Assembly (NCBI GenBank): GCA_963402885.1
Contig: OY727096.1
Location: 29,555,820-29,619,819 of the forward strand
From: Antedon bifida
Lineage: Eukaryota; Echinodermata; Crinoidea; Comatulida; Antedonidae
DNA: 64,000 nucleotides
Reading direction: 5' to 3'
The stretch's first letter is position 1, and the number at the start of each line of letters is the position of its first letter. Positions 21,101-64,000 of the stretch are shown here, piece after piece. Both the position numbers and the translations under genes were made by a program. The notes under the pieces are model-generated. The model did no database searches and was not told the DNA's origin. It was given only the letters and a program-made list of their open reading frames with translations.

Positions 21101-24100
21101 TTATTCGAAATCAAATAATTATACTGTATCTTCAGATGCAAATACGAAACCGGCAATGGTAATTCCAAACTGTCAAATAATTGAAATTATCGCGTTTCGA
21201 GTATTTGTTAATGACTTCGTCGACAATTTGTTTCATTTCCTGTTGTATATAGTACATCATAACCCAATTTGTAACTAAGTAAGTGTAAATAAAGCAGGCA
21301 TATACATAGCCACTAATATAATACATTTTATAATACATTTTATAATACATAACACAGACCGATATAAATAATAGGACAACGAAAATAAACCTGCTGAATA
21401 CGCCAAATAGTCTGTAATTGCTCTGCTCTGCGCCTATTTTGAGTGTCAGTCGTGTTGTTTTATGACGTTTTGAGCTAGGGCTATTACAATATAGATACAT
21501 GTTAAACCTTACACATTTAAAATCAGGAATTACCCTTTAAGGCGTTACCACTGTGTACTGAATACAAATTCTTTAGTGTTTGATTAAAAAATATATATAG
21601 TTATAACTTACTGTTAACCGTACTCGGTTAATATATATATATTGTATTATTTAGACATTTGAATTATTTATTTTAGGTATAGCATGCAAAACCTATTTTA
21701 TAAAGCTTGATTTCCACACATTAGGACGTAGTGCAACGCAAGTAATTTGACAAATCACTGCGCGATGCAAGTAATTTTTAACTAATCATGTAAATAATAA
21801 TAAATTGTGATATAATGATTAAACAATATTTTAGTGTCCGGTACGTCTCTTTTTAGAGACACACGTATGTTTTAAATAGCTGTTACTGTTATCCGCGAAA
21901 GTATTATTAACTCACTTTTGATATACGTTACGGTTGAACGATTTTCTAAGATGAAAGAACGTTCTCTTGCGTTGCACTATAAATTATATTAATTATTAAA
22001 ATCCACTCAATACCATTAACAATTACACTGCATTCTCTAGCCCGCGGCCGCTTTGAATATAATCCCTTAGACAAGGTAGTAATAAAATAAAAGCGGTTTG
22101 AATATTAAACTGAGAAGATGAAGCGCTAGAATGCCTTCCAGAGACATAACAAGATAGATAGTGATTGATTAAGTAAAAATTGTATTTTAAAGGCTTTCAA
22201 AATGAAATAGGTTGGTTTAAAGGTAATTTTCTGTCTGCAAATTAAAAGGCGTCACAGGTACCTTACACGTGTTAGATGTATGAAGAACACGTCTTCATTG
22301 ATAGTATCAATATAATCTTTATTTCCATTATCGTCATTATAGTATTTAACGTTCAATTCAATTATTTTATTTCTTCAAGCACTCTGGCTCGAAAATTGTC
22401 TTAATCATTAATCACTTATATATTCATAAATTTGAAACAAACATATTGTTTAATGTAACTCTTAGGCTATATAATATGCTTCAAATCTATATAGGTATCC
22501 TAGCATTTCCGCGCACATACACGGTGTTTATTTCGTACTTATCGTTTTCGCGGATAACGTATATAACTCGCCATTGTGGCAAGTTCAGATCTACAGTAGT
22601 TTACTGCTTGAAATTATCATTATCATTTTTCTTTTTTTGTCATCAGTATAATCTTCTATTTTGTCGTCACTATTAATATTTTATACACAAACCCATGTAA
22701 TTACATTATAAGATGAGTCACGTGAGTACTGTACATCCTCCATATAAAACCTATTAACCGCAAGTTCATTTAAACAAGAACGATTAAAAACCAACTAGCA
22801 GGTGTACTGGGTGTGCATTCAAAGATATTAGTTTCAGAAACGTATTCATTATATCGATTACTTTATTCTTATTAACGTTAAGGAAGCTGTAAAACTCCTC
22901 ACAAATTGCATTTCAAACTTCTTAACCAACGAAATGATTATAACTATCAAGCTGAGAATTCGATGATGGATAACGATCTTATGAGTCGGTTCTAATTTGT
23001 ATTTGAATACACTACGTTGATTGCTATCAATAATACGATCGCTTCACGTATTATTTGCGAACGTTCTTTTCTCGGTTTGTTAATAGTCGGGCGAATCTCA
23101 GTTCTAATATTCTCGATTCGTAAGGTATACTATAAAAATTATAAGTCTAAAAAGAAAGTTTTTCCGGACGCGTCACCTATCGGTACAATGGAGTTGCATA
23201 TTAAAATAACTGGAAATATGAGTGATGGTGATACTATCAATATACTGTATTATGCCAGACAAGGATATGTATGAGAAATCGATATACTGTACAATTCACC
23301 TGCTCAGTAGGCCTAGGCAAAGTAACATTTTATAATAAAAATATAATTATTTGGGAATATTAAATTATAGTTGGGATCACGAAGTAATGACGCGTATGTA
23401 CAGACAATACTTGTAAATCATTTCCTGTATTTCTCTAAGTGCTCGTTACGAATTGTCTTGTTGTGTGAGCCTTGAATTAAGTAGATCTTCTGGTATATTG
23501 CCAGTATTGCAATTATTGTGTTTTCCCATTTAAAATGATTATTGTTAAATACTAGTATGCATTCATCCTTAACATCGTCGTCATCACCACCACCACTATC
23601 ATTATCATAATCATCATTTCTCTCTTTTATTGCCCATACTCTTCATATCTTTCCTATAGCATTCTTTTTCTCGTTCTTTCTTTAACGATGGTTTTCGTAT
23701 CTTTCTTCCTCCGGCTGTCTTTCTTATTTCTCTTTGCAATAGTCTTCGTATCCTTCTTCTACCAACTGTCTTTCTTTTTTTCTCTTTTCGATAGTCTTCG
23801 TATCCTTCTTCTACCAACTGTCTTTCTTTTTACTCTTTGTGATAGTCTTCGTATCCTTCTTCTACCGGCTGTCTTTCTTTTTTCTCTTTGCGATAGTCTT
23901 CGTATCCTTCTTCTACCAACTGTCGTTATTTTTTTTTCTTTGCGATGATAGTCTTCGTATCCTTCTTTTACCGGCTGTCTTTCTTTTTTCTCTTTGTGAT
24001 AGTCTTCGTATCCTTCTTCTACCAACTGTCTTTCTTTTTACTCTTTGTGATAGTCTTCGTATCCTTCTTCTACCAACTGTCTTTCTTATTTCAATTTGCG

Positions 24101-43223: not shown

Positions 43224-46200
43224 TTAAACAGTCTGGCCCGGAAGCGGTTGGTCCGAGTGCGGCTGGTGCAGATGACCGGGTTGTCGTGACTGACCCGGTT
43301 GAGGTTGGCCCAATTCCGTCTGACCTAGTTGCGACTGACCCGGTTGCGGCAGGCCTGAGTATGGCTGGCCCGGATACGAATGGTATTGTAAGTTTGGCTG
43401 TATGGTATTCACGAACACTTTAACAAAAATGAAAACTAGGCAATTACGAAATTAAACTACTAGCTATAATGTTGTTTTGATTATTTATGTAGAAGCAAAA
43501 ATCTTTAGCTTAAAGACTTGTTATCAATAAATAAATTGCTTACCGCCCGGTGGTTGTTGCTGTTGTTGTTGGTGGTAATGTACAGTTGTAGCGCCAGTAT
43601 TAGTTTGTAAAACTGGTTGTGGAACTACCTATATTGCAAAACAAATCAAAATTGTTGAGGGACATAACAATCTATACTTTACGGACGACAATATATTATT
43701 ATTATTGTTATTGTCTAAACCAATTTCTGCTGTAGGCCTATGTGAATTTATTTACTTTTGCTAGAAATAAAGTATAACATTATTATTGAGAATATAGGCC
43801 TACTACTAGTTACATAATATCTTTGCACCTAACTCAATTCGATCAGATTTTGGGAATTTGGACGTTGTCAACATGTAGTTATTATTGTTATGACGTCTTC
43901 ACTTGTAAGTTTTGATAGTTTAAAACCAGGGGAGATTGAAATTTCACTCTTTTCCCTGTTTAAAGCACACTGTTTCACTCTCTTCAAGTAGGCTTACTAT
44001 ATTAGTTTTTAGTATCCTCTATGCCTATTGATTATAGTATAATGAATACCCGGACTACCTATATAATGGTAGTGGTTAATAGTTAGAGTAGCTGATGAAT
44101 TGATTTGTTACCGTATTAAATAATGGCCTATGTTGTGACGCAAGAACTAAAGCCCATATTACAATGGCAATCTCACAAAAACACCACATGGCCAAATTCG
44201 CATCGATTGAAATTCGAAGAATTTTCGGAGAACTCTATAAAACAAAAGCATATAATAGGCAGACAGCCAATTAAATCATTTTGAAATTAATTAATTCATT
44301 CTGTAAACTTTTTTGTTTATCATTTTGTTGTTATTGGATGTCTAAGATCAAAGAATGCATTCACTTACCGGTAAGTCGTATAACCAATCATAATACTCGT
44401 AATATTCAGGTTCATTAAAAGCAGCAACGCAGGATATGATACCTACACACAATGCATGTAAGCCGACAATGATATTGCTTACATTAAATGTAACCAACTG
44501 TAAAAATAACAAAATCAATCTTAATCGTAAAACTTTTTTTGAATAATGTACCTATATTTAGTTAAACTTAAAGATGTATTGTCCCTTTGTCTAATTCCAA
44601 AAAAATAAAAAATAAAATATTTTGAAAAAAAGTGGGTCATTTTGAAGTATCATAATAGTTATTAACTTTCACCAAAAATTAGTCGAAAAAAAAATCATTT
44701 AACTGAAATACAGACGTTTTTTTGATTAAAAAATAACTTTGACTTCCAGTCAAAGTTTTCGATCAAAACATATCTTATAATGCAACGCCGCTTGTTTGGC
44801 TACTCTGTATGCATAATCATAAAACTTCCTTGCGATCTGTGTGAAAACACCTTCTCAACCATGACGAGTTGTAAACAATCTTAATTAGCATATGCATAAT
44901 GCATACTCGTGGTTTGAAATCTTTGTTTACTTTCACTCGCGATGATTTTCCAGATGAAATAAAATAATCAAATTAATTTACCTGTTAATTACATAAACGT
45001 CTTGTTTTTGGCTCGAATTTTCGACTTAAAGTGAATAACTTTAATAATACTTTGATATGGCCAATTTAAATTTAGAATATTTTGACCTTCATTTTTTTGT
45101 GTTTAAAGGGACAATACATCTTTAAGTATTGACACTAATATTTGCATTTTGCTATAAGTGCCGTATATTAGGCTCTTCAATTGTTAATGACTTCATTATT
45201 TTCTGTACAGAAACTATTATTTGTATTACTATTAACAGTTCACACAAGAATGCAACACAAAAGGGTATGTGCAACGCAAAAATGTTACATCGATTATTTG
45301 TATTGCGTTGTCTCCTCCTAGTGTATTGTATACACTGTTCACTTTGAGTTAGTCTGACAAGTATTTCATGGACTCAGTTCAGTTCTTATATTAGTTATTA
45401 TACTATTATACAGTAGTAGTATTTAATTGTCTTTGTCTTCTCTTATATTTTCTAAAATGTTCTTCGGTATGTCTGTCTCTATATTATTTTCCAGTATTCT
45501 TCTTTCTCTTTACTTGTTGATTGCATTTACATCTTTTATTTGTGGTGTGGTGTAAATTATTATTTATAGAAATCAAGTAATTTAGCTACTATATAAATAT
45601 TACCAAAGTAATGGCAGCTTTTAAAAGATGTTATATGTTTTATAATACCTACTATGCATTTCTTTTGTTCGAAGTCCATCGAGTGCATGCTGGCAATAAA
45701 CCCACAGATAGCGCCGGCTATGATCTGAAATAAACCAAAATATGAGATTTGAAGTTTGGAAGCTTTTGTAGTGTCTTCATTCCATTGGATCCCCTCCTAG
45801 CTACATACTGTATATAATTGTACGATGTCTTAGTTGAGATGATGTACTTTGAACATGAATAGGCCTATGTTCAATACTGGACGTCTAAGGCAGAAATCAT
45901 GAATAATTCATTAGGATATTTATGCCAGTATAAATTAAGTAAATTCTAGGGCCGATATACAATCGTTGTTTTCGTCATCGTCGACATCGTCGTACTGTAG
46001 TAAATGCCACCGCCACCACTGTGATTATTCTTCAGACAATAATTTATAGTTAAGTGTAGATTCATGACAGAAAATAAACTTCTATCAGCCTATTTTATAG
46101 CTAATGAACTTGATAAATCTATATAAATTGTGCTTATCTCACCATGATTCCTAGCCAAATACCTGCTCCAAAATAGATATTGCAATCAAAAGTTACTGCA

Positions 46201-47793
46201 GTAATCCCACAAATCCCAATCAGGATTCCAAATGACATCTAAAAAGTAATAATAATAATATTATTTTAATATAATTATTTATTTTGTTGAAAGGGAAAAA
46301 CGACTCTGTAAAGTTTGCAAATGCGTAGTTGAAATAAATATCACTTTGTTTTGGAATGTCCATACTACAAAGAAATTAGATAGTCTTTTTAAAACATTAT
46401 TATCTTAATCAACCAACAAATAAAAAGTTTATTTTACTAATGAACAAAAAAGAAAAAAGTAATCAATAACCTGGTAAGATTTGGCCTTTTCGCATATAAA
46501 AAGAGAACCAATTATTTTGCTGTTACTACTAATAAAATATAAATATGTATTATTATAAATTATTGTATGTGTCAATGGCCTACATACTATTCCGTTTGAT
46601 AATCGTTATAATTCCTCAATGCTTTACTACTCTAATCGGCATCCTCATTAATAATCTTTTTTTCTCATCAACCACCTATCTACTAAAACCTCTTTATCTA
46701 CATCTTACCTACACTTATCATCCTGCTAATCAACATCCTGCTAATCAACATCCTGCTAATCAACATCATCTGCACTATAGTCATTGTAATCATGGAGGTA
46801 TAAATAAACATCTTTTACTATACAATATTTCATGCATCATTCTTTTCATTCTCTTCATAAACCTCTTCATCATCTATCATCAATTAAAAAAAATTCAAAT
46901 TTAAATTTTCTTCCGCAAATACAAATCAAAATAATGAAAATATAAAAGATTTCAGTTCAGTCGATTTTACTAACTTAAATTGTTCAATAGAACTTTCTAT
47001 CTTAATTCCATCAAGTCATGCAAAGACTCGTTGCCCTCGGGTTAATATCTTCTAGTAAAATAGACTTATTTGATATCTACCGATTCTACCAGTTTTTATT
47101 GTTTTCCTTATGGCATATGACATATCGAGAGCTGCAGGAGTGTTTTCATCATTTCGAAGTACTGTCTTAGCATTGTCCAATGAGTATCACTAAGCTTCAA
47201 TGAAAGTGGCTCAGTTCGACAACATTTTAGATTACGATTTTAGACCATTGACATTAGGATAGCTCTCAGATTTTTTCTATGACACACAGGTTTCCATACT
47301 CTCGATAAACTTCTCTTTACTATCTTCCTCGTAATCAACATCTACACTCTCCTCTTCGACGTCCTTCCTATTACATTCTTCATAAACATAATATATTATC
47401 ATCCTCTTCTTCACTAAATATTACTATCATATTCATCTCCATTTACATTACTTTCGACCCCTTCACCACCATCTATCTTCATATTCATCATCATCCATAT
47501 GGTAATTCTCATGATTATATCTATCGTCAGCTTTAGTAACTTCTTCTTTATCAATATCAACTCTTTATTTATATCGTTATACCTCATAGCAACATCATCT
47601 GTATCATCATCTTTATCTTCAACGTCCCCCTTTAAAACTGCTTGTTTACCTGTGCACTACTGTTACGTCTTATGGATCCTTCATTTCCATTAATTACGAC
47701 TGCCTGTTGTACATGTGTTGTGGGAGTTAGTATTATCCCACTTTGTTGTGGATTCTGGTTTCCATAATGGATCGTCTGTACATGACTTGACAT
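43224..47793 (-). CDS. MS4A/CD20-like four-span membrane protein, copy A (280 aa)
   Basis: Exons in order: 47793-47650, 46238-46143, 45724-45653, 44497-44369, 44234-44112, 43628-43544, 43417-43224. All are GT-AG; the first five introns are phase 0 and the last is phase 1. Four hydrophobic spans: FGILIGICGITAVTF; GAGIWLGIMIIAGAICGFIA; FNVSNIIVGLHALCVGIISC; and ISIDANLAMWCFCEIAIVIW. The GAGIW motif at TM2 and the conserved EQKKCI/LVTF junction before TM3 fit the CD20-like (MS4A) family, whose members modulate receptors and ion flux at the plasma membrane. The N-terminus (MSSHVQTIHYGNQ) and the long tail rich in PGQ, QLGQ and HQQQQQQPP should be cytosolic. The extracellular loop between TM3 and TM4 is Tyr-rich (EPEYYEYYDWLYD) and longer than in copies B and C. 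A poly(A) signal candidate lies near 43049. A 558-base MITE sits in intron 3. MS4A membership is likely; ligand and function are unknown. Confidence 0.82.
44568..45125. mobile_element. MITE, TTAAAGATGTATTGTCCC family (558 bp, copy 2)
   Basis: Inverted ends CTTAAAGATGTATTGTCCCT and AGGGACAATACATCTTTAAG enclose an AT-rich body with no coding frame. It lies in intron 3 of MS4A-like copy A and shares its ends with the 352-base element at 30594. Confidence 0.87.
46550..47640. other. G-poor, CATC-rich tract in intron 1 of MS4A-like copy A
   Basis: Long stretches of the plus strand are almost free of G, with many CATC, TCATC and CTTC runs, so the transcript is C-poor and rich in GAUGA. A perfect 15-base repeat (CATCCTGCTAATCAA, three copies) is at 46719-46768. 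Shorter tracts of the same kind lie in intron 1 of copies B and C. Confidence 0.6.
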
Positions 47794-49100
47794 GGTTATC
47801 TATACAAAAGTTGTATTTGTTATTGTATCTTAGGAACAGGAATAATCAATAGAAAAAGAAAATCAATTCATATGATTTACATGTGTACGTCTTTTATACT
47901 CTAGTGTAAACTTCAGTTCAATAAAACCAGCAATTATTAAACAACCTACTTCATAGCTAAGTATAATAAGGAAGAAAAAACCTATACATTACAGAACATA
48001 AATGCATTAAACAAACCAATCCACCCTCTAATACGGTCATTATTTGTATGGATTTATTGTTTTATAACACGCTCTTGTGTTAGCTTTTAATTTTCTTTGG
48101 TAATGTGCCTGACATTATTACAAGTTATTGCATTGTAACCCATTTATGTATATTTGTTTTATTTGGAATAGCTTTATTATTGCATTTACGTTACGTTTTT
48201 GTCCATACTAGTACTAGGCCTACATACTAGTATATTTCCTTTCCTTTTTAATGTTGTGGAGGTTCGTCTAATTTTATTTCTTCAATAGTTTTTTTTTTCA
48301 ATACGACATATTAGAAAATTATTAGACTAAAAGATAGTAACTTGCGTGAGGAACCCTTATTGCTAGAAATTTTCATTCTGTAATCAGTTCTAAATATAGA
48401 GGACAAAAAGAACCAATGCTATTCTCTCTAGTCTCTGTAAAAACTGCTGTACAATTCTATAGGGATAGTAATTTAGTTCATGAACGATAGCCCTCTACTG
48501 TAGTTATGGGCAAATGGACTAAAATATAAGAATTACCGAGAGAAATGACATCACTTATTTCCTTAAATTCACTGATTTTTACACAATATTTACATAGTAT
48601 CAAAGTAATATTCAGTTAAACGGCATCCTATGTGGTGGTGCCTGTATCATGTATAGGTTATGGTCTATTATGATACTAGGCGATACGTATGAAACACATG
48701 TGATGATGTATTAACGAAGATTCCTAGGATATTGCAGACATCTAGATGCAGTACCGAGAATCGGGTGCGATGGCAGATTCCTGTAGGCCTACTGTACTAC
48801 ATTTTCAACTATCCTCATTCCTATGGTGACACGTATTAATCATACAAATGCTATATTTATTAACTACGCCAACAAAGACTAAAAGTGTCAAGAAATACCC
48901 TTAACATTTTGTATATTATCACATTGTTTTACGCAGGCTTATATAGGCATATTATTGCACTTTGCAAGTTGTGGAACCATATTTTGCGTAAATACGAAAT
49001 AAAAGAATAAGAAGCCATTCTCGTAAAAAAAAACGAGAAAGAATCTAATAGTTTCTTTAAAAAGAGTAAGCCTACCTGTACATGTATTTTGTATTCTTAC

Positions 49101-49180
49101 CGTTAGTCGTTATTTCTCCCGTACTTGTTACTGTAATGTGACTTGTCGATTGTTTTGTGTAGAAGACTAGACTTTGAATA
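49101..49180 (-). promoter_or_regulatory. Untranslated first exon end and upstream motif of copy A
   Basis: On the minus strand TATTCAAAGTC (49180-49170) lies 69 bases before a GTAAGA donor at 49100; another donor (CAG/GTAGGC) is near 49074. The untranslated exon would join an acceptor that starts the coding exon at 47799, six bases before the ATG. The same motif and donor order is found in copies B and C. The transcription start is not determined. Confidence 0.5.
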
Positions 49181-49613
49181 TCATAAAATCACGTATTTGT
49201 TAAACAAACAACACACAAATACAGTCTAATAAATTACTTTAAGAAACCGCATTCATTGGTTCAATGGGATTTTATAGGTGGCTATAAGGATTTTTTATAA
49301 ACACCCTCATCACGTATACCACATTGCTAAAAATATACAAAAATGAATGTGCTCAACGTACTCATTTGCATTTGCTTTTATTGATTTTACAATAATTGTA
49401 TTTAAAAAAATTTTATAGATTACCAATTGATCAATTTTACAAACTAACAACATAAACTATTTATTTATATGTATCAGTATTTTCATCCTTATTGACGAAA
49501 AAAAGTATTTAGTCATCAACTTCCCCAAAGATATGTCACACAAATTATTTTTTACATCTTTACACGTGGCATCATCGTCGATGGACATACTGACTCGGAT
49601 TTTGCTGACCTAA

Positions 49614-52600
49614 TTACTTTCCAGAGTGCGGCTGGGCCGGGTAAAACTGGTCTAGTTGCGACTGACTGGAGTACGACTGGTCCTGAGGCGACTGTGCCGG
49701 GTACTGCTGGTCTGGATGCGGCTGATATTGTGGAGGAGGGTCGATGGTATTCACGAACACTATCAACAAATAAAATAAAATACTAATAATAAGTTTTGAT
49801 AAAAATCATTTCTGAATATTCACTGCCAGATAATTGATCATATTTATTTACACACTTTGGCGAAGCATCTCTAGTTTAGTTATTTTTAAGTGTACATTTA
49901 GATTATTTAGTAAATAATAATGTCTTAGGAGAGCATTGTAGAGTAGAAATATGCAAATTAGATACAATAATAGTGAACCTACCGCCTTGTTGTTGGGGAG
50001 TATGAAGGTAGTACTGTACGGGTGTAAAGTTGGGGTTGTCTCTTCCTGTTTGTGCCACTATCTACAGTAAAACATATGTATATTGTAGTAATATAATGCT
50101 TATTACAATCTGGTGTACGTTTATTAGTATTTCTTCGTTGGTAGCTGGAAATATTATTTATGAATTACTCAATGTTGTTTGAATACGGGTTATCCTAACG
50201 TTACCTAAATTAACGGCGTTTTGTTTAAATTTCATCTGAATAACCGTATGGTCCAGTTTCTTCAGCGACAAAATAACCGTTAGGCCTATTTTAATCGTGA
50301 GAATGAATTAACCAAAATGTCCTGGCAGCAAGAACACTAGGACACATTTTCAGTAAACGGTTAAATAGCAGCCATAAAATAACGGTTAAAATCCCCCACT
50401 CGATTCAACATTTAACCGGTTATTGCTGTGCACACTTTCATGATAACGGTTATTTGATTGACAGCCGCTGGTTTTGAGTCAACTACACTAGTAACAGTAA
50501 CGTTTGAATTGACCGCCAGCGTCCAGTGCATTTTGGGTAATGCTAACGGTTTCGGTCGACGACCACTGATTTAGATGGTTATTTAGGAGCGAAAGTTTAT
50601 CAGAAATGCATTAGATGCAAAACATTAAATTGTTTTAAAGAAATGTCGGTTTATTCTGTGTCATGCATCAGAAACAGACTCTATGGCTTTACACCCAACT
50701 CAATGAAACGGTACGGTAGTTTTAGATGCCTTTTGCCTAGTCTGAACCATTCATAGAATATCGTTTATTAATTACCATTTGACTACTACAGCAGATAGCT
50801 CTTGATGTTAGGGCCACCGCCCACATTCCAACAATCACCTCCATAAAAGACAGAATTGCAAGCGTTATGTCGATTCCAACACGGACAGATCTTGAAATAT
50901 CCTTTAAAAATGTTTAATATTAAAATATATATATATTTACATTAACTAAAGTAAATTAAGAATGTTTTGGCTGATTTTTTGTATTCGTTAGTTATTATTA
51001 TTATTAGCTTCTTTATTGTTTCAAAATTTATATTTCAGTTAATTGTTTTCTTCTGATGATATTAAATTAAATTGTGTAGTAAGTTTTAATTAAACCTTCT
51101 GTAAACTGTTTTTTTTTAAATTAGAACATCGAATCATCAATTACAACTAAAAGATATGCCATAACAAGATATGGCCTACACTGACTTGCCATTCGTTTGC
51201 TTCTTCCATCAAGGCAGCACGGCTAGCTAAAATTCCTGTGATCAATGCAATTATGACAACAACGATACTACATATATTAAATGTAGCCAGCTGAAAATAA
51301 AACCATCAGCAATGTTTCATTTTACATGTAAATAGTTTTTAATAGTTAATTATTTGAATTTGATATTGTATTGTCATTGTATCCTTTGATAATTAAAATG
51401 TATTTGGTAATCACATCATAGAAATAATAGAAAAGAGAACAAATTATACAAATAAACAGCCCTTGATTACAAAGAACGCCAAGAAAAGTTAAGCACTTAT
51501 TTATTCGTATCCTACGTTCTACTTCATTGCGGCAATTCAAAAGCAAACAGTATGACGATACTTTTGAATTTATTTGTTTGAAAATTTAGGCATCATTAGA
51601 CCGTAACAAAATGTTAAAACTATCTACCAGCCCATACTAAATGGAACCACTTATTTCGTTTTTCATTTATGTTATTCAGGCCTAAGTCTAAAATATAAGC
51701 TTTATATTTACTAGACAGTACTTTCGTGAAAAATTCGAAGTTGTGCTGGAAGCCAATCCAACGCTAGCAAAGCCGAAGATCTGGAATAATAGAACAGAAA
51801 CAAATGGACACATTATAATCTCGCTATACATTCGGTTGGTAAACACTAACTCAAATTTTAGCACGCGACTGTAGCCATGTATATGGCCATGTTTATGAAA
51901 AAAAATCTTCACTCTCCTAATGAACGAAATGGATACTACTTAAGTGTGTAATGTCTTACCATAAGACCTTGCCAAATACCAGCTCCGAAAAAGACAGAGC
52001 ATTGTGTATTTACTGCAACAATTCCAAAAGTCAAAGTTAATGCTCCAATGAACAGCTAATAAGAATAATATAATAAAACATAGGGTGTCATTCTCAATGA
52101 CTAAAATACTTATCATAGCTTATCAGAAGTTTTCACTCTTCTTTTCTTCCATTATCCCCATTGTCTGAGTCAAATATAATATAATAACACCTCATCATCA
52201 TCATACTAATCATTCCCATCAATTTAATTTTCTAGTTTATCATGTTAGCATATCTTTTTTCTCGACATCATATACTTTATTTTCATCATAATCATCTGTT
52301 TTGCCGTCATATTCTTTTACATCATCAATATACTATATTTTTACAATCTGCATTATTATCATCAACATCTTCCCTATAATTAACATCTCATTTATCAACA
52401 TTCACTATGTCTTCATCTGCAACACTTTCATTAACTATTATTCATCTCATTAACATTCTCTCTATCATCATCGTCTTTGTCGTTGAAATCATTTTCAGTT
52501 TTTCTCTTTTGGTAGGTGGTGTCCGAAATATACTCTCATTCATACATAAACTTTACATAGTATACGTAACACTATAGTGTAATAGCTAGGCTTACAACAT

Positions 52601-52871
52601 TTTTCCATTCACATTCTACTATTATGTTTACCAAGTTTTCTATAGCCTTTTTGTCTGCATCACAAACGCTTTATTTTTAAAGGATTTCTTTCTAAATAAA
52701 GTTTTTTACCTGTAGAATACTGTTATGTCTAACTGCTAAATCATTTCTTTCATTTCCAATAACGGCTGTATTGATTGGCTGCACACCTGTCACGTGTACT
52801 GGTCCGGTTTGTTGTGGACACTGGTTTCCATAATATTGTGGAGGAGAGACTGTCTGTACATGGCTAGTCAT
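49614..52871 (-). CDS. MS4A/CD20-like four-span membrane protein, copy B (260 aa)
   Basis: Exons in order: 52871-52710, 52055-51960, 51780-51712, 51290-51186, 50901-50776, 50061-49983, 49759-49614, with the same phases as copy A. Spans: LFIGALTLTFGIVAV; GAGIWQGLMIFGFASVGLA; FNICSIVVVIIALITGIL; and VGIDITLAILSFMEVIVGMW. The STTSNFSRKYCL segment before TM3 recalls the NSRKCL stretch of mammalian CD20. The N-terminus is MTSHVQTVSPPQYYGNQ. The tail (QYQPHPDQQYPAQSPQDQS) keeps the Pro/Gln/Tyr composition but has lost the exact PGQ repeat of copy C. The first coding exon uses an acceptor at 52880-52879, and a MITE ends only about 20 bases upstream of it. A poly(A) signal candidate is near 49465. 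Confidence 0.83.
50211..50552. promoter_or_regulatory. Cluster of AACGGTTA (Myb-type) motifs
   Basis: Eight TAACGG/CCGTTA-type words lie in about 340 bases in both orientations: 50211, 50241, 50274, 50355, 50380, 50413 (palindromic TAACCGGTTA), 50444 and 50543. Five extend to AACGGTTA or its complement. The sequence fits the animal Myb consensus YAAC(G/T)G. It lies in intron 5 of MS4A-like copy B. Confidence 0.5.
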
Positions 52872-52900
52872 AGTTTTCCTGAATTATAAAACCATCAATT

Positions 52901-53074
52901 TAAACTCTACACTATCAAACTGTATGTGTGGCAACTAAATTGTGATGTGCCTATAATATGGACATGATGATGTCATTATCACCGTAGCATAGTTTGGCAT
53001 ATCACCACCATATTTGGGCACATCCCAGTTGTTTTTTTCAAACTAGCTAGTTTTATAGTGTAGACAGAGCTTTA
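52901..53074. mobile_element. MITE, GTCTACACTATCAAACT family (copy 3, 174 bp)
   Basis: The left end reads TAAACTCTACACTATCAAACT and the right end TTTTATAGTGTAGACAGAGCTTTA. The inside repeats the family signature (TGTGATGTGCC, ATGGACATGATGATG, TTTGGGCACATC). It is longer than the 130-base copy at 28793 because of extra internal sequence. It lies between the untranslated and first coding exons of copy B. Confidence 0.82.
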
Positions 53075-53806
53075 AGTCTAAACTCCTCTTATTTATTGTA
53101 AATTATTTTATTATACACATCTCCTTAATTGTAAAACCACCAGTTTAAGTCTAAATTTATTTATTGTAAATTATACACATCTTTTAAATTAAACAAAGTC
53201 ACTCAGGTTATTTAAAAGTGGCTTTTGGTAAAGATTACAAAACGTTATTTAGGATGTGTTCTGTGTGTGAGTATTCATTACAAATGGACGTAGAAGCAAC
53301 AATAACAAGCGACAGTTTGAATAACCCATCGCTTATGATTGGCCAAATAACTTACGTAATAATGACAATAATTACCGGTTTTTTTTGCGAAAGTTTTAAT
53401 TTTTTTCTCTTCCACATAGAAATATTTATTTCATTCTTAAAAAAATTGTAATGTAGAAAAGTTGTGTAACAATTTAGTAAATTATTTCGAATAGAATAAA
53501 TTACATGAAGATATTATTATTATTGTTATACTGTGGTGTCTTTTAAAGAAAAACGGTCTACCTTTTTTCAACGACTAAAAGACTAAGTAACCAAGGAATA
53601 ATGTATAGCCTAATAATTCCATGTCTCCATAATAGAAACAGTATCAAAGACAAGTTTTTAAACACGAACACGTGAACAAACAACACAGTAAGAACCTCAA
53701 AGACCGATCAAAGTCCATTGATCTACGTGGTAGTTATTTTATAAAATCATGGTATAGTACAGTAGTATACATATACATTAAGATGTAAACTTCTTAAAAG
53801 TCTTAC

Positions 53807-53881
53807 CTGTATATATTTGCTGGTACCTTTTACCGTCTGACGTGAGTTTATGAATTGTTTTGATTTATTTGACTTTGAATA
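53807..53881 (-). promoter_or_regulatory. Untranslated first exon end and upstream motif of copy B
   Basis: TATTCAAAGTC (minus strand, 53881-53871) lies 64 bases before the donor CAG/GTAAGA (exon end 53807). Between them CTCACGTCAGACGGTAAAAG resembles the matching part of copy C (CTCACAGACAGTAAAAGGTG), so the block is duplicated with the gene. Confidence 0.5.
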
Positions 53882-54220
53882 AAATAAATTAAACAGGAAA
53901 CATCACTATGTTAAACAAATATCAATCAAGTTAATTATTAATTTGAATAGATAAAGTTCAACACTGATTACATTGAATGGACTTACAGTTTTTTGCGAAA
54001 GCAGTATCAATTTGGTAAATGCTACCATACATTTTTAGAAAGCTTAATATGTCTACTTTTCAGAAATCCATGATAGCAATGGCAATTATACAGCTTAATA
54101 GTAATTTTTGAGGATTATATAACACCGCCTACGGAAAATATGCAATTTAATGAACAGATTTGAATTTTCTTGGTATCAGTATGTAGTGTACAGACTGCTT
54201 AAGTGTAATATATTTTTATT

Positions 54221-54268
54221 CGCGTGGACGCGACTCTATAGTTCACTATGTCGGTCGGTCGGTCTATC
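54221..54268 (+). repeat. Dispersed repeat with CGCGTGGACGCG hairpin (copy 2)
   Basis: CGCGTGGACGCGACTCTATA followed by GTTCACTATGTCGG and a (TCGG)n run, the same order as on the opposite strand at 14732-14815. Confidence 0.6.
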
Positions 54269-54439
54269 ACCCCCTGTACCAATTTTATTTTATTTAGAAC
54301 AAATTACTGTACTGTACTGTAAATTCCCAAATTTAATGAAGCAAGCTATAGTTGTACCATTTTGTTTGTTTGTTTTTTTTTTGTTGAAAGAAAGAATTAG
54401 AAAATGACAGAAATCCCTCAATTTTGTCATCTGCTTCAT

Positions 54440-55060
54440 AAAGACTAACAACGGCACTCCAAGAGTGCATACCTTCGCCTACTGTAAAATTCTCCTACAT
54501 AAGATTTCACCGGAAAAAAATATACATTTTGTCTCTTAATGCTGTGTGTGATTAGGCTAATTTCACTACAACCATGAGTGTATGTAACCGGCCTTTTAAC
54601 AATAGTTTCAGTTGAATATCAATAGAACAGCAACGCCAAGAACAAACGGGTGAATTGGAAAAGAAATAGGTTTTTTAAAACTACTCATATCAACAAAACC
54701 TGTACATTAAATCAAGTTATGTTTTAAAATTACAAATCACAAATTATAACCATTACCTCTTGAAGTTTTTTGGACAAGTAGTTCTCGAGAGAATGCAATT
54801 TCAGTTTACTTGTTACTTTGCCGGCTTTTGGAAAATTGTCTCCTATTTTAGCAGGTCTAAAAATAATACTAAAAAGAGGTCCAAAATTGGGGCTCTGATC
54901 CGGATTGCATCCACAATTTAATGGAATGGTCCTTCACCACATATCTATCTGTATTTTCATTTTGGTAAAGATCTTTCAATAACTTTTAAGTAATCCTGCT
55001 AACAATCAAACAGACAAACACACGCGATCGACTATATACCTCCTTGGCGGAAGATGTGTA
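54440..55060. repeat. Dispersed repeat bounded by hairpins
   Basis: The left side has a perfect stem GCACTC/GAGTGC at 54454-54468, followed by ATACCTTCGCC. The right side ends ACGCGATCGACTATATACCT then CCTTGGCGGAAG, an imperfect CCTCC/GGAAG hairpin. The right part (TAACTTTTAAGTAATCCTGC, AAACAGACAAACACACGCGA) resembles a repeat I recall from several marine invertebrate genomes. Recollection only, not searched. Confidence 0.5.
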
Positions 55061-56085
55061 CAATTGCAGCCTAATTCATGTAAGCATAAATACATGCATG
55101 TTTATCATCATTATACAAATGTGTCAATTAAATCAAAGTCATAACCTTTATAGAAAGTCGATGTTAAGAAAGAGACCGTATATATAGATATTTTATTTAT
55201 TCACTGTCAAACATATTAAATACAGTACATGGTTTGAAATTATTTTTGTTTGCTCAAAGGTAAAAAATTAAACTTTCACATAAAAAATGAGGTTAAAATT
55301 TAACAAGAATTGGTAAAATACGGATAAAATACAATATCTGTATATACATTATTAGCAATAATGACAATACAGATCTGTAAAAGTGTTTTTTTACAATACA
55401 TTGTACACAGCTGAATTCAATTTTATATTTATCGATTTATAAAAAAAAGAAATGATAACCATATAGATCTCACAAATTTTCTTAAAATTCAATGCTTTTT
55501 AGATCACATTGTACACAGCTGATTTAAATTTTATATTTATCGATTTACAAAAAATCATTCAAATTTATTAGCATAATCATCACACTTATGTACAAATTGG
55601 CCAATAGAAGGTTCAATATTTCTAAACTGAAAACATATAGTAGCCTATCAAAGGTTATCCCAAAGTAACTTATTTTTTATGTTAATGTATGCCTATGCAT
55701 TCAATATTAATAAGCTGTTCTATAAGTCCCAGCTTCGCAAATAATGACTGTCAAAACAAATTAGTAGGTTACGAGAAAGCAGAAACACACAAACAATAAT
55801 TATATACCTAACAATTGTAAAATGCGTTTAGTGTGTATTATATTTTCCAATTACAATAATGGAATGCACGTAATGTTACAGAATGTTGCCGTAGTACGTC
55901 TTTACTGCACTAAACAAAAAGTAGTGATGAACAAGGGGAATACAATGCCTTCAACTTAATTTTTTCGTTTTGTTGTCGCTGCCAGATACCGTCTGATTAG
56001 GTGTTTAGAAGTAATGTTTATATTATTATTCTGTAAGATAAAAATGTAAAAAACGAATTCATTTTTTGTGACGTATTCATTTTCT

Positions 56086-59000
56086 TTAGCGTGTTCGTAA
56101 AGCTGCAAAACCTCCATACTTACGCTTTACAGGCTGGCCCTGATGCAGCTGGCCCTGATGCGGCGGCTGTCCCGGGTACGGCTGCTGTCCCGGGTACGGC
56201 TGCTGTCCCGGGTACGGCGGCTGTCCCGGGTACGGCTGGTATTGGGGAGGCTGCTGTGCAGTATTCACAAACACTGCAAAATTAAAAGTTTGTAAAAACA
56301 TCATCTTTCTGGTTTGAAATGCAACACAATTAGTTATGCCCACTGTACTTTCCATTATCCTATAATATTTAATGTAATGAAAGTTAATAAATACTACTAT
56401 TCATTTAAAAATGTTATTAAGGTAACCACCTTGTTGCTGTTGTGGAGGTGGGTAGTACTGTATAGTTGCAACACCAGGGTTGTAGTGTACACCAGTGTTG
56501 TATTCCACGCGTGGCTGTGCTACTACCTAAAAGGCAAAAAACAACATTATTTAGGCCCATAAAAATCTAGACTTTACATCCTGTTTAAATTGCTATCTTC
56601 TATGTGATTTAAAAAGGCTCTTGACGAAAATGCTTAATAAAGATTGATTATTTTATTTTAAAAGACGTTGATATACTAATCCTTAAGAATCAATATTGCC
56701 CGTTGCATTCTATATTTTCTCAACATTTTCTTGTACCCTCTTCTTGTTATGATTTTAGTTGTAAATTTATATACATTTATAGAAGTACTGACGAAGAAGT
56801 CAATCTGTGGTGACTATATAATGGACCCGAGACCTGACTTTCTTTGACTTTTAAATGATAGAAGTATTTACTTATTATTTGTGAGGATAGAAATATACGA
56901 TGTACTGTATGATGTATAGGTTTATTTGAAATTGCTGACGTTTTTGAATAACTTTGTACAGTATATACATTTTGATGAGAGAACAGTTTATTTGATCAGT
57001 ATTAGCTTTCACTGAGAGTAAAGATATAAGGAAGAAAAGCAAAGTGGTTCGGCTGTTCCAGAATATACAACAGCAAATAATAATTGTAAAGTGGTACACG
57101 CAGTGTGTACATACATTTCTCGGTACTGCATTTACCCTGTGGGTCAAGTATTATAAGCAAATTCCGTTCTTTCACATGACAACTGTATCATATGCACTAA
57201 GCCTAACATATCTTTATATGTTATGACATACGTCATGTGAGCCTATATTATGAAATTTGCTTATGATACTAAAAACATAATGTCATTTTATGTCACTTGT
57301 AGAACAGTGCATTACTGAGTATCAGTAGGTCTAATTACCATTTGATTACGAGATGAGCAGTAAGTATCTCTTGACGTCATGATCACAGCCCAGATTGCAA
57401 CAAACATTTCAATAAAAGACAAAAACGCCAGAGTTATATCGATTCCAATTCGAGCAGATTGCGAATACTGTAAAAAATATTATAATAATATTAATACATA
57501 ATAAAATGTACATATATTGTATTATCATTTTAATAAAACATATTATATGAAAAAGTAAGTAAAAAAGTAGGTGTGTTATAAAACAGATAATGAATGTTTT
57601 GTGTTCTTTGACTGGAGTCAATTTTTCAACTGAAATATTCTCACCATCTTTGACAGGGCAAAGAATGAGGCTGACCAACCAGATGAGGATATCTACAGAC
57701 TTGTATATTCCAAAAAAAGGATATGTGAAATTGTTGGAACATCTTCCTTGAGGGACTGCATATACAGTCAGTATATCCGATACGTTGGTCATATCTGTAG
57801 AGGACCGAATACATCAATTACAAAAAAGATGCTGTTTGCTGTTCCAACAAGACGGTACTATCGTGATCCTTGGATTAAAATCTCTCGTATTTTAAGTATG
57901 GAAATCAGGCAAGCCAAAGCCATTACACAATCAAAGAAAAATCTTAACGATCAACTTAGTAGGCTATTTGGTGCCGAATAGGTTTTCGACTCCAGTTCTA
58001 CGACGTAGAAGAGGAGGATCCCATATGTATGTATGTATGTATCCAACTCATAAACATTCATTATTTGATTACTTAATAATTTCCGTACTAGGAATAACAA
58101 AAATATGAAAATATAGAGCTAAAACACGTTGCCGTAAATGGACATGTTTAGCCACAAGAATGATGTAAATAAGTCACGCCCTCTGTTGCCCGCTCTGCGA
58201 ATGTATGAATAACGAAAGTTGTCGAAATATTGATATTGCATATAAAGTTCATTTTTTTAGTAATTCATTTTATATATATTGTATCAACATTGGTAATATC
58301 AATAAAATATGGTAAAGCCTTACAATATTTTATTTAGTCAAGTAAAAAATAACTTTTTCAATTTAAAACTTACATAATAATTGTATGGTTGTTCAATAGA
58401 GGCAGCAATGCTGGCTAAAATACCTATGGACAAGGCATTTAGGGCAATGATGATACAGCATACATTAAATGTAACTAGCTGAAATAAGCAATCATAAATA
58501 TTTTATTAAAATTGTTGACAGAATCGGTTTATTTTTTTTGTAGTTGTAATTTTATTTTGATATTTATTTTCCTTGACATTAAACATTTATTCTTTTTTGT
58601 ATTAATTGTAGTAGATTATCTTTCCGGATATTTCCTTCTCACTTCTGTCGAGTACATAGACACAAAATTGTTTTGTGATTAAGCATCTATTATTGTTAAT
58701 GTGATTAAGGAAGAGTAAAATTTCTTGTGTAAAGTGTAATTCTTGATCTTTATGTAGTATTTTTTGTTTACATTATACTTACTAGGCAGTGCTTTTGTGA
58801 GAAGTTTGAAGTTGTGCTGGCAGAAATCCCACACAAAGCCACGATCACAATCTTAAATAGAACAGAATATGACTGTAAGCACTAACTGTCACATGGCTTA
58901 TACCATCAGTGCAGGTGTATAAATGATTTGTGGTTGCAGTCGTGTAGTATTAAGAGACTTTTGGATTTACACGGCCACTTTATTGACTGATACCATAGGA

Positions 59001-60642
59001 TATCACTTTGATGAATTGCACATGCGGCAATTCATCGTCTACTTATTAGGTCTACCGCTTAAGATTTAGCTTTAGGTTCTCAGTTAGTTAAATTTACTAT
59101 GACCATAAACACATTAATATTGGTTCCAGTTGTTTTTCGATACAATGAAGCGTAACAAGTTCAAAGAAGGCCAACATTTGCAAGAAAATTAGTTTAAAGG
59201 ACAATATAAAAACAAGCAACAATGTTGCTCTCCTTGAGTAATTAAAATAAAAAATTCTACTTGAAATGATTGAGAAACAACACTGCATAGGCCTAAGGAA
59301 ATACAGTAGGCTTATAACTAAATTAGGGTTTACAAGTTACAAAGTTATTAATTAATGATTGATATAACAACATTTCCACATTATTCAGAACACCCTTAGG
59401 TTTCACTTTACAATAAAATCATGAAAGTTCTTTACTGTTAGCAGTAGGAGAACTTACAATAACATAAAGGCATACTGTTTAATTAATAGCTGTTCAATTG
59501 CAATAGATACATCTCTCTTGTAGACATTGTGAAATAATTATCTTACCATAGTTCCTTGCCAAATGCCTGCTCCGTCGTAAATATTGCAATCTATACATAC
59601 TGCAACAATCCCAAAAATTCCAATTAATGTTCCAAGGAGTATCTAATAATAGTTTATTATAATTAGGTACGGTTTATTTTGTTTTGTAATTCTTTTAATT
59701 AACATCAATATTGTCATTCATTTACAATGAGCAAAGCGCTTTATCTGGTGAACATTACTTTTTTGGAAAAAGGAATGTTATAAAAATTGAATTACGTATC
59801 GTTTTAGAGAGGTTATTCCAGATAGTCTGGCCAAGATTCGAAATGTATGTTCACAAATCCGAATGTGTCTGCTTATGAGCAGTCTCTGTCTGAATATGCT
59901 ACCCTCCAAACTAAGAAATGCGGTATCAATAAAAAATGTTAAGTCTGATCTAAAAAATATATTTGACACCAAAAGAAAAAACGTTTTGTAAAGTATTGTA
60001 GGCTGTATATTATGTATGTGTATATTATGTATGTGTATTTGTATGTATGTTTAACATAGTTCATGTTCTTTTTTCATTCTGTTTTTTTTCATATAAGTTT
60101 TTAAATGTTCATATGAAGGTTCCTTGATATGCTGTTAAGGGTACCCTCTTTAAATAAGGTTTAATAAATAAATAAAATAAAATCACCAAATTATACCAAC
60201 AATACAATATTCTCCATAAAAAACCATTAACCATTAACAATCATTAAAATATTTATCTTTGTCGTCTACCTTTTGGGGTTGTTTTATATTTCTATCAACA
60301 ACTTAATCATCATGAAATTTCCATCAGCGCCTTTATTATTATTATCATCATCATCATCGGCGTTTTTAACAATTCCTCTTGAACATCTTTAATATAATTG
60401 TCTGTAATCGCCATTCTCCTCATCTTCTTCATCAATATCATATTTATCATCGCAAGATAATCTTCATTATTAAAAACATTTTTGCTTACCTGTGCAATGC
60501 TATTGTTTCTTAATGATGCATCTCTTGTCCCAACCGCAGTAGTGATCGTCTGCACACCTGACGTCATCACTATTCCGGTTTGTTGTGGATACTGATTTCC
60601 ATAATATTGTGGAGGAGGGACAGTCTGCACATGGCTTGCCAT
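56086..60642 (-). CDS. MS4A/CD20-like four-span membrane protein, copy C (278 aa)
   Basis: Exons in order: 60642-60490, 59642-59547, 58851-58783, 58478-58374, 57467-57339, 56526-56430, 56273-56086. Phases are the same as in copies A and B. ATG at 60642 is preferred (MASHVQTVPPPQYYGNQ); it aligns with the starts of the other copies. Spans: ILLGTLIGIFGIVAVCI; GAGIWQGTMIVIVALCGIS; FNVCCIIIALNALSIGILAS; and IGIDITLAFLSFIEMFVAIW. The tail begins VVAQPRVEYNTG and in the last exon becomes four copies of a PYPGQ(P/Q)P unit written by a near-perfect 15-base DNA repeat, then PHQGQLHQGQ and a basic end (KRKYGGFAALRTR). Intron 4 carries a LINE fragment and intron 1 another. The neighbouring copies support recent tandem duplication. 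Confidence 0.85.
56158..56232. repeat. In-frame 15-bp repeat coding PYPGQ units
   Basis: CCGTACCCGGGACAG (minus strand) with small variants is repeated about four times inside the last exon of copy C. It is a GC-rich island in AT-rich surroundings. Copies A and B have only scattered remnants of the unit. Confidence 0.9.
57600..58045 (+). mobile_element. LINE 3' fragment (RTE-like) with (TATG)n tail
   Basis: An open frame from about 57650 to 57981 reads AKNEADQPDEDIYRLVYSKK, then RYVGHICRGPNTSITKKMLF, then RRYYRDPWIKISRILSMEIR, and stops after LSRLFGAE. This fits the region after the reverse transcriptase of RTE/CR1-type non-LTR elements (the GHICR...R.R.W arrangement). It is followed by AGAAGAGGAGGATCCCATA and (TGTA)n, a typical RTE tail. 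The fragment is 5'-truncated and upstream frames have stops. It sits in intron 4 of MS4A-like copy C. Confidence 0.75.
59800..60180 (+). mobile_element. Probable LINE 3' end with AATAAATAAA tail
   Basis: Plus-strand frames contain LPSKLRNAVSIKNVKSDLKN, which resembles the LP..R...S...FK..L end of CR1/L2-like reverse transcriptases. An untranslated stretch follows (AGGGTACCCTCTTTAAATAA) ending GGTTTAATAAATAAATAAAA. It lies in intron 1 of copy C. The 5' part is gone. Confidence 0.5.
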
Positions 60643-61495
60643 GGTTTTCACTGAAAGTAACTGAATGTAATGGTATTTATAAACTCAACAAAATAGAACA
60701 TGCCCGTCCAGTTTGTGTAACGAGGGGCTTCCGGAAGGGTTACAGTACTAATGTATGTAGGCTGTATCAATATCAAAACGACTACTTAATTACAAAAATA
60801 CTACTTTGAAAAAGAAAATTAATATGATCAATAATGTTATGGCTATGATACAATAGGGAATCCACAATGACTGTTCAAAGTTTAGTTTGTTCAACCTGAG
60901 GCCTAGGCCTATAATACACACACGTTATGTATGACTGGTATGCATATTCGTCCACACACGCGCTAATGAATACAATTGTAAAATTTGTTTTGATAAGTTC
61001 CGGGTCATAACGTTTAAAAAAAATAATCGCTGAGGAATGTTTTTGGTTTTACAGACATGACATGATGTATTTGGTACACATGAATTATAGACAAAATTAA
61101 TAAAATATTATGGACAACGGCTATTTCCAGTTTACGAGAAAGTGTTTCTGTAGCAGTAAATCAATAATCTGTCAATTATGTAAAGATATTAATCAGTTTA
61201 GTTGAATTTTCACTTTACTGTGGAAAGCCAAATTTTAACCTAATTAAAGAGGTGTATTGCATAATGAGAAGCACATTTTGTACTTCATTTCTCGGTGGTG
61301 GTATAGACATAATTTATAGGCCTAACGTAACTTAGGACCAGAAAAAATGAACACACTTTCAAGACTTTTATGCGGAAAAGCAACTGAGGAAAGTATACAA
61401 TATGAAAACATAATTGTATAATTATTATAACGATCAACACCCAAACTCGTACTGTTTTAATTTGTACTAAGAAAAAGATGAAACAATATTCTTAC

Positions 61496-61549
61496 CTTTA
61501 ACTATTTTCCTTACACCTTTTACTGTCTGTGAGTTTAGGACTTTGAATA
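61496..61549 (-). promoter_or_regulatory. Untranslated first exon end and upstream motif of copy C
   Basis: TATTCAAAGTC (minus strand, 61549-61539) lies 43 bases before the donor AAAG/GTAAGA (exon end 61496). Upstream, TTAATAATTAAC and a TTTGCTTAATC stretch resemble the flank of copy B. Confidence 0.5.
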
Positions 61550-62000
61550 CTACTAATTTTCTCAACACGGAACATAGATTAAGCAAACATTAAAAAGGTT
61601 AATTATTAATCCATTGAAATAGATACCGAAACCGAAATAATTGATACAAAGGGGCTGTGTTGTATATTATAAATGATATTTTTTATAAAAGCGTTTATTT
61701 TCCTCACACTACAGACTAAGATAAAACAAATTCAATCAAACTCTCACTAATGTGTTCGTGCACTTGCGCACGCGTACCAATTAAGAACTTATGATGTACC
61801 CATGGCTACATTAATAATTTACTACAATGTGTACGCCGAGTACAAAGTATAATAATATTACAGAAGATTAAAGAGATAACGTGTTTGATGAGTAAGTACC
61901 TACTGTAGTATAGAGGGCGTATACACATGTCCTTGCTATGATTAAATCGTACATTTATAATAGTTATTTGTATTTGGCAGAGAACTGTTTATAAGCCGAA

Positions 62001-62144
62001 GGCTAGAGGGCGTACTCCACACTGAAAAGTGATTCCAACAGCAGGCAGGGGGAACCAACAAGATGACGGCCGTAAATGTGTTAAAAAACATTATTTAATA
62101 TAAAAAATAAGACCAGAGGCCAGTCAGGAGTACGCCCTTTAGCC
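62001..62144. mobile_element. Short inverted-repeat element (144 bp)
   Basis: GGCTAGAGGGCGTACTCC (62001-62018) is mirrored by GGAGTACGCCCTTTAGCC (62127-62144). Only one copy is in the window, so it may be a MITE or foldback element. Confidence 0.65.
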
Positions 62145-63452
62145 AAGGGAAGAGATCCCTGGTTACACCATGGTTAAACATGAAAGAAGAGATTTTTGAA
62201 AACAACTGGAAATCTCAAGTGATCTCAAGTGAAAAATATGAATCGATGGGATGATGACTGAGAACCGAAATGAAAGACTTGATTAAATTCAGTTTTGTTT
62301 TATTTGGACCTATTAGAACGGAATAAGTGTGCCTTGTAAATTGTCTCGTAGCGCCACCATCGAACATTTTTATTTTCCTTCCAGCTTGCGCAATTATATT
62401 TCCTTATCTATTATAGATGACGCATGACGTATTCTTTGCATAATAGTTATTGACATCGCTTACATGCCTACATTGTTACCTCATGCATATGCATCGTTAC
62501 GTAGACTTTTTATGCAGACTGTATTGTTATTAGTGTATTTTCATACAAATTCCAGGCACTGCACCGCGGGGAGAATACGTACATAGTACAGTACTGTTGG
62601 TATTTGTCACAGTCAGACATAAGATCAAAGGACTGTTTACGAGTTCCTATCTTGGGAAGGCGAGCTCAGTGTCATGTTGTTAGATTGCCTTGGTTAAACA
62701 GATGAACGAAATATTGTATAGCGACAACAAATATCTATTATCCATTCAATTATTTTAATTTTATTTACAAAATTATACGGTTTAATCGCTATTAGTCTAA
62801 ATATTGATTTTGCACAATTATGGGATTTAAGATTAAAAATAATGCTCAAGATTCTTTTGCCGAATCCTACAAACATTTTTGCCATGGACCAATGAATTTA
62901 AGTGTATCTGAAAACTATTATATTACACTGGTAATCTAATCGAAGTTGGGAGAGAGAAAAAATATATAACCACCTAATCGATATTATTATTTTTTTCATT
63001 TTTATTCAGCGATGGTTTCATATGAATAAAAAATAATGAAAATATACAAAGATAAAAGAGTTATACGATTGCATACTGTATAAAATATTTCAGCTCCCCG
63101 TTGATCTATTATGTTTCAATTTAGTAATGTATGCTACCAGCTACCATTTATTTCTTCTGTGTAATCGAAACATTCTCCATATTCACAGACACTACAATAT
63201 ATAAACATAATATATAATGATAATGGCCGGAGTATAATGATAATACTCATCTTGGCAAGCATCTTATTTTCTTTTTAAACATCTCCAATATCGGTGTTGT
63301 TTCTGATACTGCTGTTTTATTTCAAAATTATTTCATGTCGTTAAAATAAGTCCGAAACTTTTTTTCTCTTAAAAAGAGAAATATTAACATCTTGTGTTTT
63401 GTTCTATGACATAAAAATACATATAAAAAACACACACGCGACTGCACTTAAC

Positions 63453-63853
63453 TTATCCTGATTTGGTTGGCTCTGGTTTGGCTGGCCGCGCCTTGGTACG
63501 ACTGGCGTGGATAGTGGCCCGGGTACGACTAGTATTGTAGGGTTGTTTGTGTGTCTGTGATATTACAAACATACTTTCTTTTAAAATTAAACATAAGCAT
63601 CTGCTACTATTAAACACGGTAACCAAAGAATTGAAATGCTGCTCTTTTCTATGTTTTTCTTATTATAGTGCGCTTGTAAACCAACATAATTGATTAATTA
63701 ATATTATGTGGGCCTATATTAATATACTGAGCTTACCGACTTGTTGTGTTGGTTGTAGTGGGTACTCCCTGGTTAATATAAAACCGTGATTATTTTGCAT
63801 ACCAGATTGTGTGGTTACCTACCAAAATATTCAATTAATGCTCCAAGAACCAT
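63453..63853 (-). pseudogene. Broken MS4A-like copy D
   Basis: Three exon relics lie in order on the minus strand. An exon-2 fragment (63853 to about 63821) reads MVLGALIEYFG after a TTAG acceptor and is similar to LFIGALTLTFG of copy B. It runs straight into an exon-6 relic (63818-63737; VTTQSGMQ...QPTQQV, with a GTAAGC donor). An exon-7 relic follows (63573-63453; frame FVISQTHKQPYNTSRT to TAA). Exons 3-5 and their introns are missing, so three membrane spans are gone. Relative to the other copies exon 7 has two extra bases just after its acceptor, giving an early stop in the expected frame. Exon 1, if present, is beyond the window. The element is a host gene relic. Confidence 0.75.
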
Positions 63854-64000
63854 CTAATAAAAATAGTAGACATATTAGTAGGTAGAGATATTTCCAAAAT
63901 AAATATGCATTTCCAAAACTGTATTTTTATTTATTTTTTCTTATTTAGGGCTATCCTCATCCAGGACTAATCGAATTCTATTTTTCATTCTTGTTATCTT

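Follow-up and report, generated by a model that had tools for sequence, protein, structure and literature searches.

The genome of the crinoid Antedon bifida harbors a small cluster of genes for proteins with four hydrophobic spans, located on contig OY727096.1 (C9 in the following). The window analyzed here is a stretch of 64,000 nucleotides (C9:29555820-29619819), and own-genome searches were conducted in the 315.6 Mb and 27 contigs of the assembly. An original prediction, made from the DNA of this window, had described the cluster as a tandem array of MS4A/CD20-like genes in an invertebrate. The nature of the host is borne out by the mitochondrion, represented by the 15.8-kb contig C27: in the part of its COI gene that was aligned, AAA stands at asparagine (2/2), ATA at isoleucine (4/4) and TGA at tryptophan positions (1/1), as in the echinoderm code. 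The mitochondrial genes also seem to be arranged as in crinoids.

Three of the genes, referred to as A, B and C, are intact and lie head to tail on the minus strand (Table 1). As predicted, splicing yields seven coding exons apiece, with junction phases of 0,0,0,0,0,1 in all of them. The 18 internal introns invariably start with GT and end with AG, and some have weak donors (e.g. GTTACC at exon 6 of C and GTCAGT at exon 4 of B); the exact 3' end of gene C is uncertain, because a GTAAGT sits within its last exon. The protein features described for the array are equally found in all three products (3/3 each), namely the SHVQT N-terminus, the GAGIW motif and four hydrophobic spans, the latter in a 19-residue Kyte-Doolittle scan. 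The identity to protein C is 55% for B and 52% for A, and the reading frames look mildly conserved, since the proportion of synonymous differences exceeds that of nonsynonymous ones in each of the three pairs (pS/pN 0.52/0.39 for A-B, 0.52/0.29 for A-C and 0.45/0.28 for B-C). The untranslated first exon proposed for each copy likewise has a probable counterpart: in an alignment of the upstream sequences, three similar leader exons are apparent, one per gene and every one ending at a GTAAGA donor, which places their 3' ends, while the coordinates do not fix the 5' ends.

Two repeats were observed within or next to these genes. In exon 7 of gene C, 18-base repeats (56130-56256) encode a tail rich in PYPGQ and leave an antisense frame open as well. 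Upstream of gene B lies a dispersed repeat (52893-53075) with more copies in the window and its flanks and, by eye, similar wording near a gene on contig C1 that is discussed below; it is probably the remnant of a small mobile element.

Table 1. Genes of the array, probable leader exons and the remnant copy, in window coordinates
Feature	Strand	Position	Exons or pieces	Coding exon lengths (nt)	Product
Gene A	-	47793-43224	47793-47650, 46238-46143, 45724-45653, 44497-44369, 44234-44112, 43628-43544, 43417-43224	144, 96, 72, 129, 123, 85, 194	280 aa
Gene B	-	52871-49614	52871-52710, 52055-51960, 51780-51712, 51290-51186, 50901-50776, 50061-49983, 49759-49614	162, 96, 69, 105, 126, 79, 146	260 aa
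Gene C	-	60642-56086	60642-60490, 59642-59547, 58851-58783, 58478-58374, 57467-57339, 56526-56427, 56273-56086	153, 96, 69, 105, 129, 100, 188	279 aa
Probable untranslated first exon of A	-	49101..49180	3' end at GTAAGA donor		
Probable untranslated first exon of B	-	53807..53875	3' end at GTAAGA donor		
Probable untranslated first exon of C	-	61496..61555	3' end at GTAAGA donor		
Copy D remnant	-	63515..63850	exon 7 piece 63571-63515 (clear); exon 2 piece 63850-63822 (likely)		

The fourth copy, D, is a degenerate, dead remnant. Its exon 7 piece is recovered with A and C as queries (0/300 shuffles each) and goes undetected with B (137/300), and for its exon 2 piece, B and C point to the same place (6/300 and 1/300 shuffles; 56/300 for A). 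A candidate for exon 6 (63760-63742) is at chance against shuffles, and no candidate for exons 3, 4 or 5 rose above 30 shuffles in a scan to window position 74000. Copy D had been described as broken and as cut by the window edge on its 5' side; the former holds, and the copy may indeed extend past the edge, as a dead one. Beyond the window, a 29-base scrap (67915-67887) resembles the end of exon 1 of B (1/300 shuffles; 93/300 for A and 112/300 for C) and has the order and frame expected for exon 1 of D, but it is adjoined by stops, and with 12 queries, a value of 1/300 is expected by chance a few times per hundred.

By contrast, the expectation that the array would carry on past 64 kb was not confirmed. 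In tblastn searches with A, B and C (E up to 1), no further copy was found in the 50 kb below and the 90 kb above the window, the sole extra match in these 140 kb having an E-value of 0.94 and stops inside. Whole-genome protein searches, in which only the best candidates are scored and the counts are hence lower bounds, returned at least 14 matches for C, at least 13 for A and at least 12 for B; among the matches listed, 14/14, 11/13 and 12/12, respectively, are at this locus, and the other two matches of A have E-values above 0.5. The array is a real, small local expansion.

We consider it likely that this array belongs to the CD20-like superfamily, which encompasses MS4A, ENTREP/FAM189 and sarcospan, and nearly as likely that a single divergent superfamily gene gave rise to A, B and C by tandem duplication in an echinoderm. 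This kinship is the best reading because the alignments beat nearly all shuffles that preserve hydropathy and because two intron positions are common to the array and to CD20-like genes of the same genome. When a profile of A, B and C was compared with human CD20, FCER1B and MS4A4A in hhalign, the score was 27.9 (E 0.0011), which was reached by none of 100 column-local shuffles (best 24.1, mean 14.3). We also computed pairwise alignments for 27 pairs, with 2000 hydropathy-preserving local shuffles each and with nine tetraspanin/claudin controls. Here, MS4A4A yielded z-scores of 5.0 with C (1/2000 shuffles reach it) and 4.7 with B (2/2000), and the best match of both proteins was a gene on contig C15 (z 6.4 for B and 5.9 for C, 0/2000 each), while the controls ranged from -1.4 to 2.7. 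The outcome was similar in a run limited to 200 shuffles and lacking these controls. The comparisons show a similarity that exceeds membrane composition for the profile as well as for B and C with MS4A4A and the C15 gene, but neither for A nor with respect to human CD20.

The second line of evidence comes from relatives in the same genome. A genome scan with the CD20 profile returned seven matches, two of them in a gene on contig C1 and the others at C15:2020768, C16, C8, C15:1630552 and C9:24369701; the C8 match has stops inside and was dropped on reading. When human MS4A4A was used to query the whole genome, two weak matches came up (E-values of 0.5 and 6.8), on C7 and C11; by eye, the one on C7 is unlike a CD20-type exon. 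The spliced C1 gene is a full-length member of the CD20 family by Pfam (84.8 bits, above the cut-off) and is one that we take to be ENTREP/FAM189-like. The gene at C15:2020768-2023209 (L042, L046) provides a second MS4A-like gene, in which the transmembrane helices TM1, TM2, TM3 and TM4 each have an exon of their own, all in phase 0 as modeled. From the C16 gene, a single exon was recovered, and no others were found in the 4 kb scanned.

In all three relatives, the TM1-TM2 exon ends at a GTAAG donor right behind a W-x-G-x-x motif (...CPYWAGFS/ in C1, ...MPIWTGIL/ in C15 and ...APYWAGVL/ in C16, where the slash marks the junction). In an alignment that was built without intron data, this phase-0 junction falls in column 84 in six of six own-genome genes (A, B, C, C1, C15 and C16). 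A further phase-0 junction precedes TM3. It occupies column 109 in A, B, C and C15 and column 110 in C1, the five genes (5/5) in which it is modeled. The array accordingly has two phase-0 junctions in common with an accepted family member, the C1 gene, besides two with the sub-threshold C15 gene and one with C16. It further resembles the C15 gene in having a separate TM4 exon. Unlike the array, the C15 gene has a TM2 exon, lying between the two junctions, of 57 nt, as in C1 (69-72 nt in the array), a cysteine-rich loop, no visible intron before TM1 and a shifted TM4 junction.

Several results weigh against this kinship, and some of them would be expected if the array were an unrelated four-span family that resembles CD20 by membrane-helix composition alone, in line with the convergence considered for invertebrate candidates in PMC2826416. 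Foremost, no copy scores above the curated cut-off of the Pfam CD20-like family (PF04103, 27.9 bits): full-length A reaches 12.9 bits, with no match for B and C, and the cores of C and A reach 20.5 and 13.9 bits, with none for B. The significant Pfam hit anticipated by the original prediction hence failed to appear, and the sub-threshold matches of A and core C, with nothing for B, leave the array close to lacking any CD20-like profile hit. CD20 is the top Pfam family of core C (E 5.5e-4), residues 4-87 being colinear with profile positions 4-88, and the match of core A is likewise colinear. For cores A and B, however, unrelated models score as high: the top match of core B is YVC1_C (19.4 bits), and CD20 is outranked in core A by DUF308, whose 22.1 bits exceed the CD20 score of C, and by Bac_rhodopsin and Tetraspanin, the YVC1_C and DUF308 matches being below their own cut-offs. 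The first two exons alone, i.e. the N-terminus plus exon 2, match nothing in Pfam in A, B and C (3/3), whereas the corresponding part scores 25.5 bits with CD20 in C16 and 20.8 bits in C15; as a control, human MS4A4A scores 118.5 bits. Locally shuffled cores of A and C never matched CD20 (0/10), but some matched other families, with up to 16.5 bits. Searches of the full proteins against Pfam and NCBIfam gave nothing above a cut-off, and a PDB search with the A/B/C profile gave no significant match.

The alignments and introns have their own weak points. The probability that hhalign itself assigns to the profile match is just 20%. Human CD20 fares no better than chance with A, B and C (z 0.0 to 0.2), FCER1B attains z-scores of 1.8 to 2.2, gene A is weak or inconclusive with every comparator (best z 2.8), and the highest control, CD81 with C, reaches 2.7 (31/2000). 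Among the relatives, the C15 and C16 candidates are below the CD20 cut-off, and the spliced C15 gene has no Pfam CD20 match. Its microexon, the best of eight candidates, emerged from a loosened scan but not from stricter ones, its TM3 and TM4 exons were chosen by eye from a list, and the microexon of C1 came from a filter favoring such peptides; as these exons were picked in this way, the TM3 junctions of C1 and C15 are not blind and weigh less than the W-x-G-x-x junction. Finally, the introns before TM4 do not coincide (columns 163-180 in the array, 198 in C15). Convergence nevertheless appears unlikely to us, given that at most 2/2000 local shuffles reach the scores of B and C with MS4A4A and the C15 gene, that 0/100 reach the profile score, and that two phase-0 introns are common to the array and the CD20-like genes of its own genome.

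The same comparisons bear on whether A, B and C are divergent tetraspanins, as might be surmised from the CD81 value and from the Pfam Tetraspanin family (PF00335), which gives 17.6 bits for full-length A and 15.7, 8.1 and 10.0 bits for cores A, B and C, all below its cut-off of 32.1 bits. A CCG motif is the hallmark of tetraspanins, but the TM3-TM4 loop of the array is short and without CCG in all three proteins, z-scores with CD9 are below zero for A, B and C, and in C, CD20 ranks above Tetraspanin. With the large TM3-TM4 loop missing, a tetraspanin identity is largely refuted and, in our estimation, highly improbable.

A more serious alternative lies within the superfamily, where the array could be an expansion of the ENTREP/FAM189 or sarcospan type, with C1 or C16 as nearer kin than MS4A. 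The W-x-G-x-x junction is the same in C1, C16 and the array, the first exon of C16, sarcospan-like by eye, shares its QILLG/FGIV wording with C (z 3.4), and sarcospan (9c3c) ranks second among the PDB matches of the A/B/C profile, over TM1-TM3, though with an E-value of 1.7; both sarcospan and the C16 exon have a PYWAG-type start of TM2. Moreover, PPxY tails, which are found in two proteins of the array, occur in ENTREP proteins. Yet the C1 gene has just one exon for TM3, loop and TM4, which gave no significant match in a search of its own, and both C1 and C16 read through TM1 and lack the Q/TM1 junction of the array. The large cysteine-rich loop of C1 is missing from the array, and the pairwise similarity is weak (z 0.9 to 2.7 with C1 and 0.7 to 3.4 with C16). 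We regard such an expansion as rather unlikely, if somewhat less so than convergence. That MS4A stands nearer to the array than ENTREP or sarcospan do can be proposed only tentatively, with slightly less than even chances. What stands of the predicted MS4A/CD20-like identity is thus the kinship with the CD20-like superfamily suggested by shuffled alignments and introns; membership in MS4A in the strict sense is unproven.

As divergent CD20-like proteins, the products of the array would have both tails in the cytosol, as in CD20; this topology is suggested by the basic residues that precede TM1, lie between TM2 and TM3 and follow TM4. They would probably form small oligomers in the plasma membrane or in endosomal membranes. 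Proteins B and C (2/3) carry two PPQY motifs, one at residue 10 and one in the C-terminal tail; A has neither. In shuffled sequences, PPxY arises in 1.4-1.6% of the N-terminal tails and in 11% and 30% of the C-terminal tails, so that the N-terminal motif, being rarer, is the more telling one, while those in the C-terminal tails are unremarkable for their composition and detract from the case. Cytosolic PPQY motifs could bind WW-domain proteins, above all NEDD4-type ubiquitin ligases, by which B and C might steer the trafficking of partner membrane proteins; the product of gene A would then have a different mode of action. We put this role of B and C as WW-domain-binding trafficking adaptors forward as a speculative one, with the odds against it.

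Elsewhere in the window, an open frame of 587 residues on the plus strand (18990-20753) has a partial CAP-Gly domain at its end (24.0 bits in Pfam, slightly below the cut-off of 26.5) and probably represents a large exon of a gene for a microtubule-binding protein. Two tandem repeats were noted, one with a 198-base unit (9510-10381; 4.4 copies, 89% matches) and one with a 51-base unit (23686-24245; about 11 copies), which has long open stretches in more than one frame and is likely non-coding.

Compared with the vertebrate MS4A genes (CD20, FCER1B and MS4A4A; PF04103), the array is alike in its four spans, the tryptophan in TM2 and the tandem arrangement, and differs in scoring under the family cut-off, in its short TM3-TM4 loop and in its P/Q/Y-rich tails with PPxY. 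The junctions of vertebrate MS4A genes, VQ/I, WGGIM/Y and CL/V, appear to agree with those of the array, whereas their TM2 exon has 57 nt. Other invertebrate proteins are labeled MS4A-like in sequence databases. Exon 2 of the array is in frame, which fits the skipping of exon 3 in MS4A2, whereby, according to a review (PMC8776166), the first two spans are lost and the C-terminal immunoreceptor tyrosine-based activation motif is retained. In a 2010 study (PMC2826416), MS4A genes are said to have arisen in jawed vertebrates and invertebrates to be without MS4A or MS4A-like genes, look-alikes being possibly convergent; a coral transcript list includes an MS4A annotation (PMC9357087). In the accessible parts of the literature on MS4A in invertebrates, sea urchin, amphioxus and echinoderms (PMC7776563, PMC7067487 and PMC9357087 included), we found no report of an echinoderm MS4A-like gene.

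Rather than a new kind of system, the array represents divergent members of a known superfamily. Its intron positions reopen the 2010 claim on invertebrates, as the sharing of introns within one echinoderm genome is evidence independent of the weak similarity of membrane helices. It is conceivable, though we would stop just short of calling it an even bet, that MS4A-type genes predate vertebrates: the TM1/TM2/TM3/TM4 exon layout would then have been present in the deuterostome ancestor and kept in the C9 array and the C15 gene, with the vertebrate cluster and the array having expanded in tandem from this ancestor independently of each other. If so, the 2010 study would have been wrong to deny invertebrates any MS4A-like genes. 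The array also offers a second tandem expansion for comparison with the vertebrate MS4A cluster.

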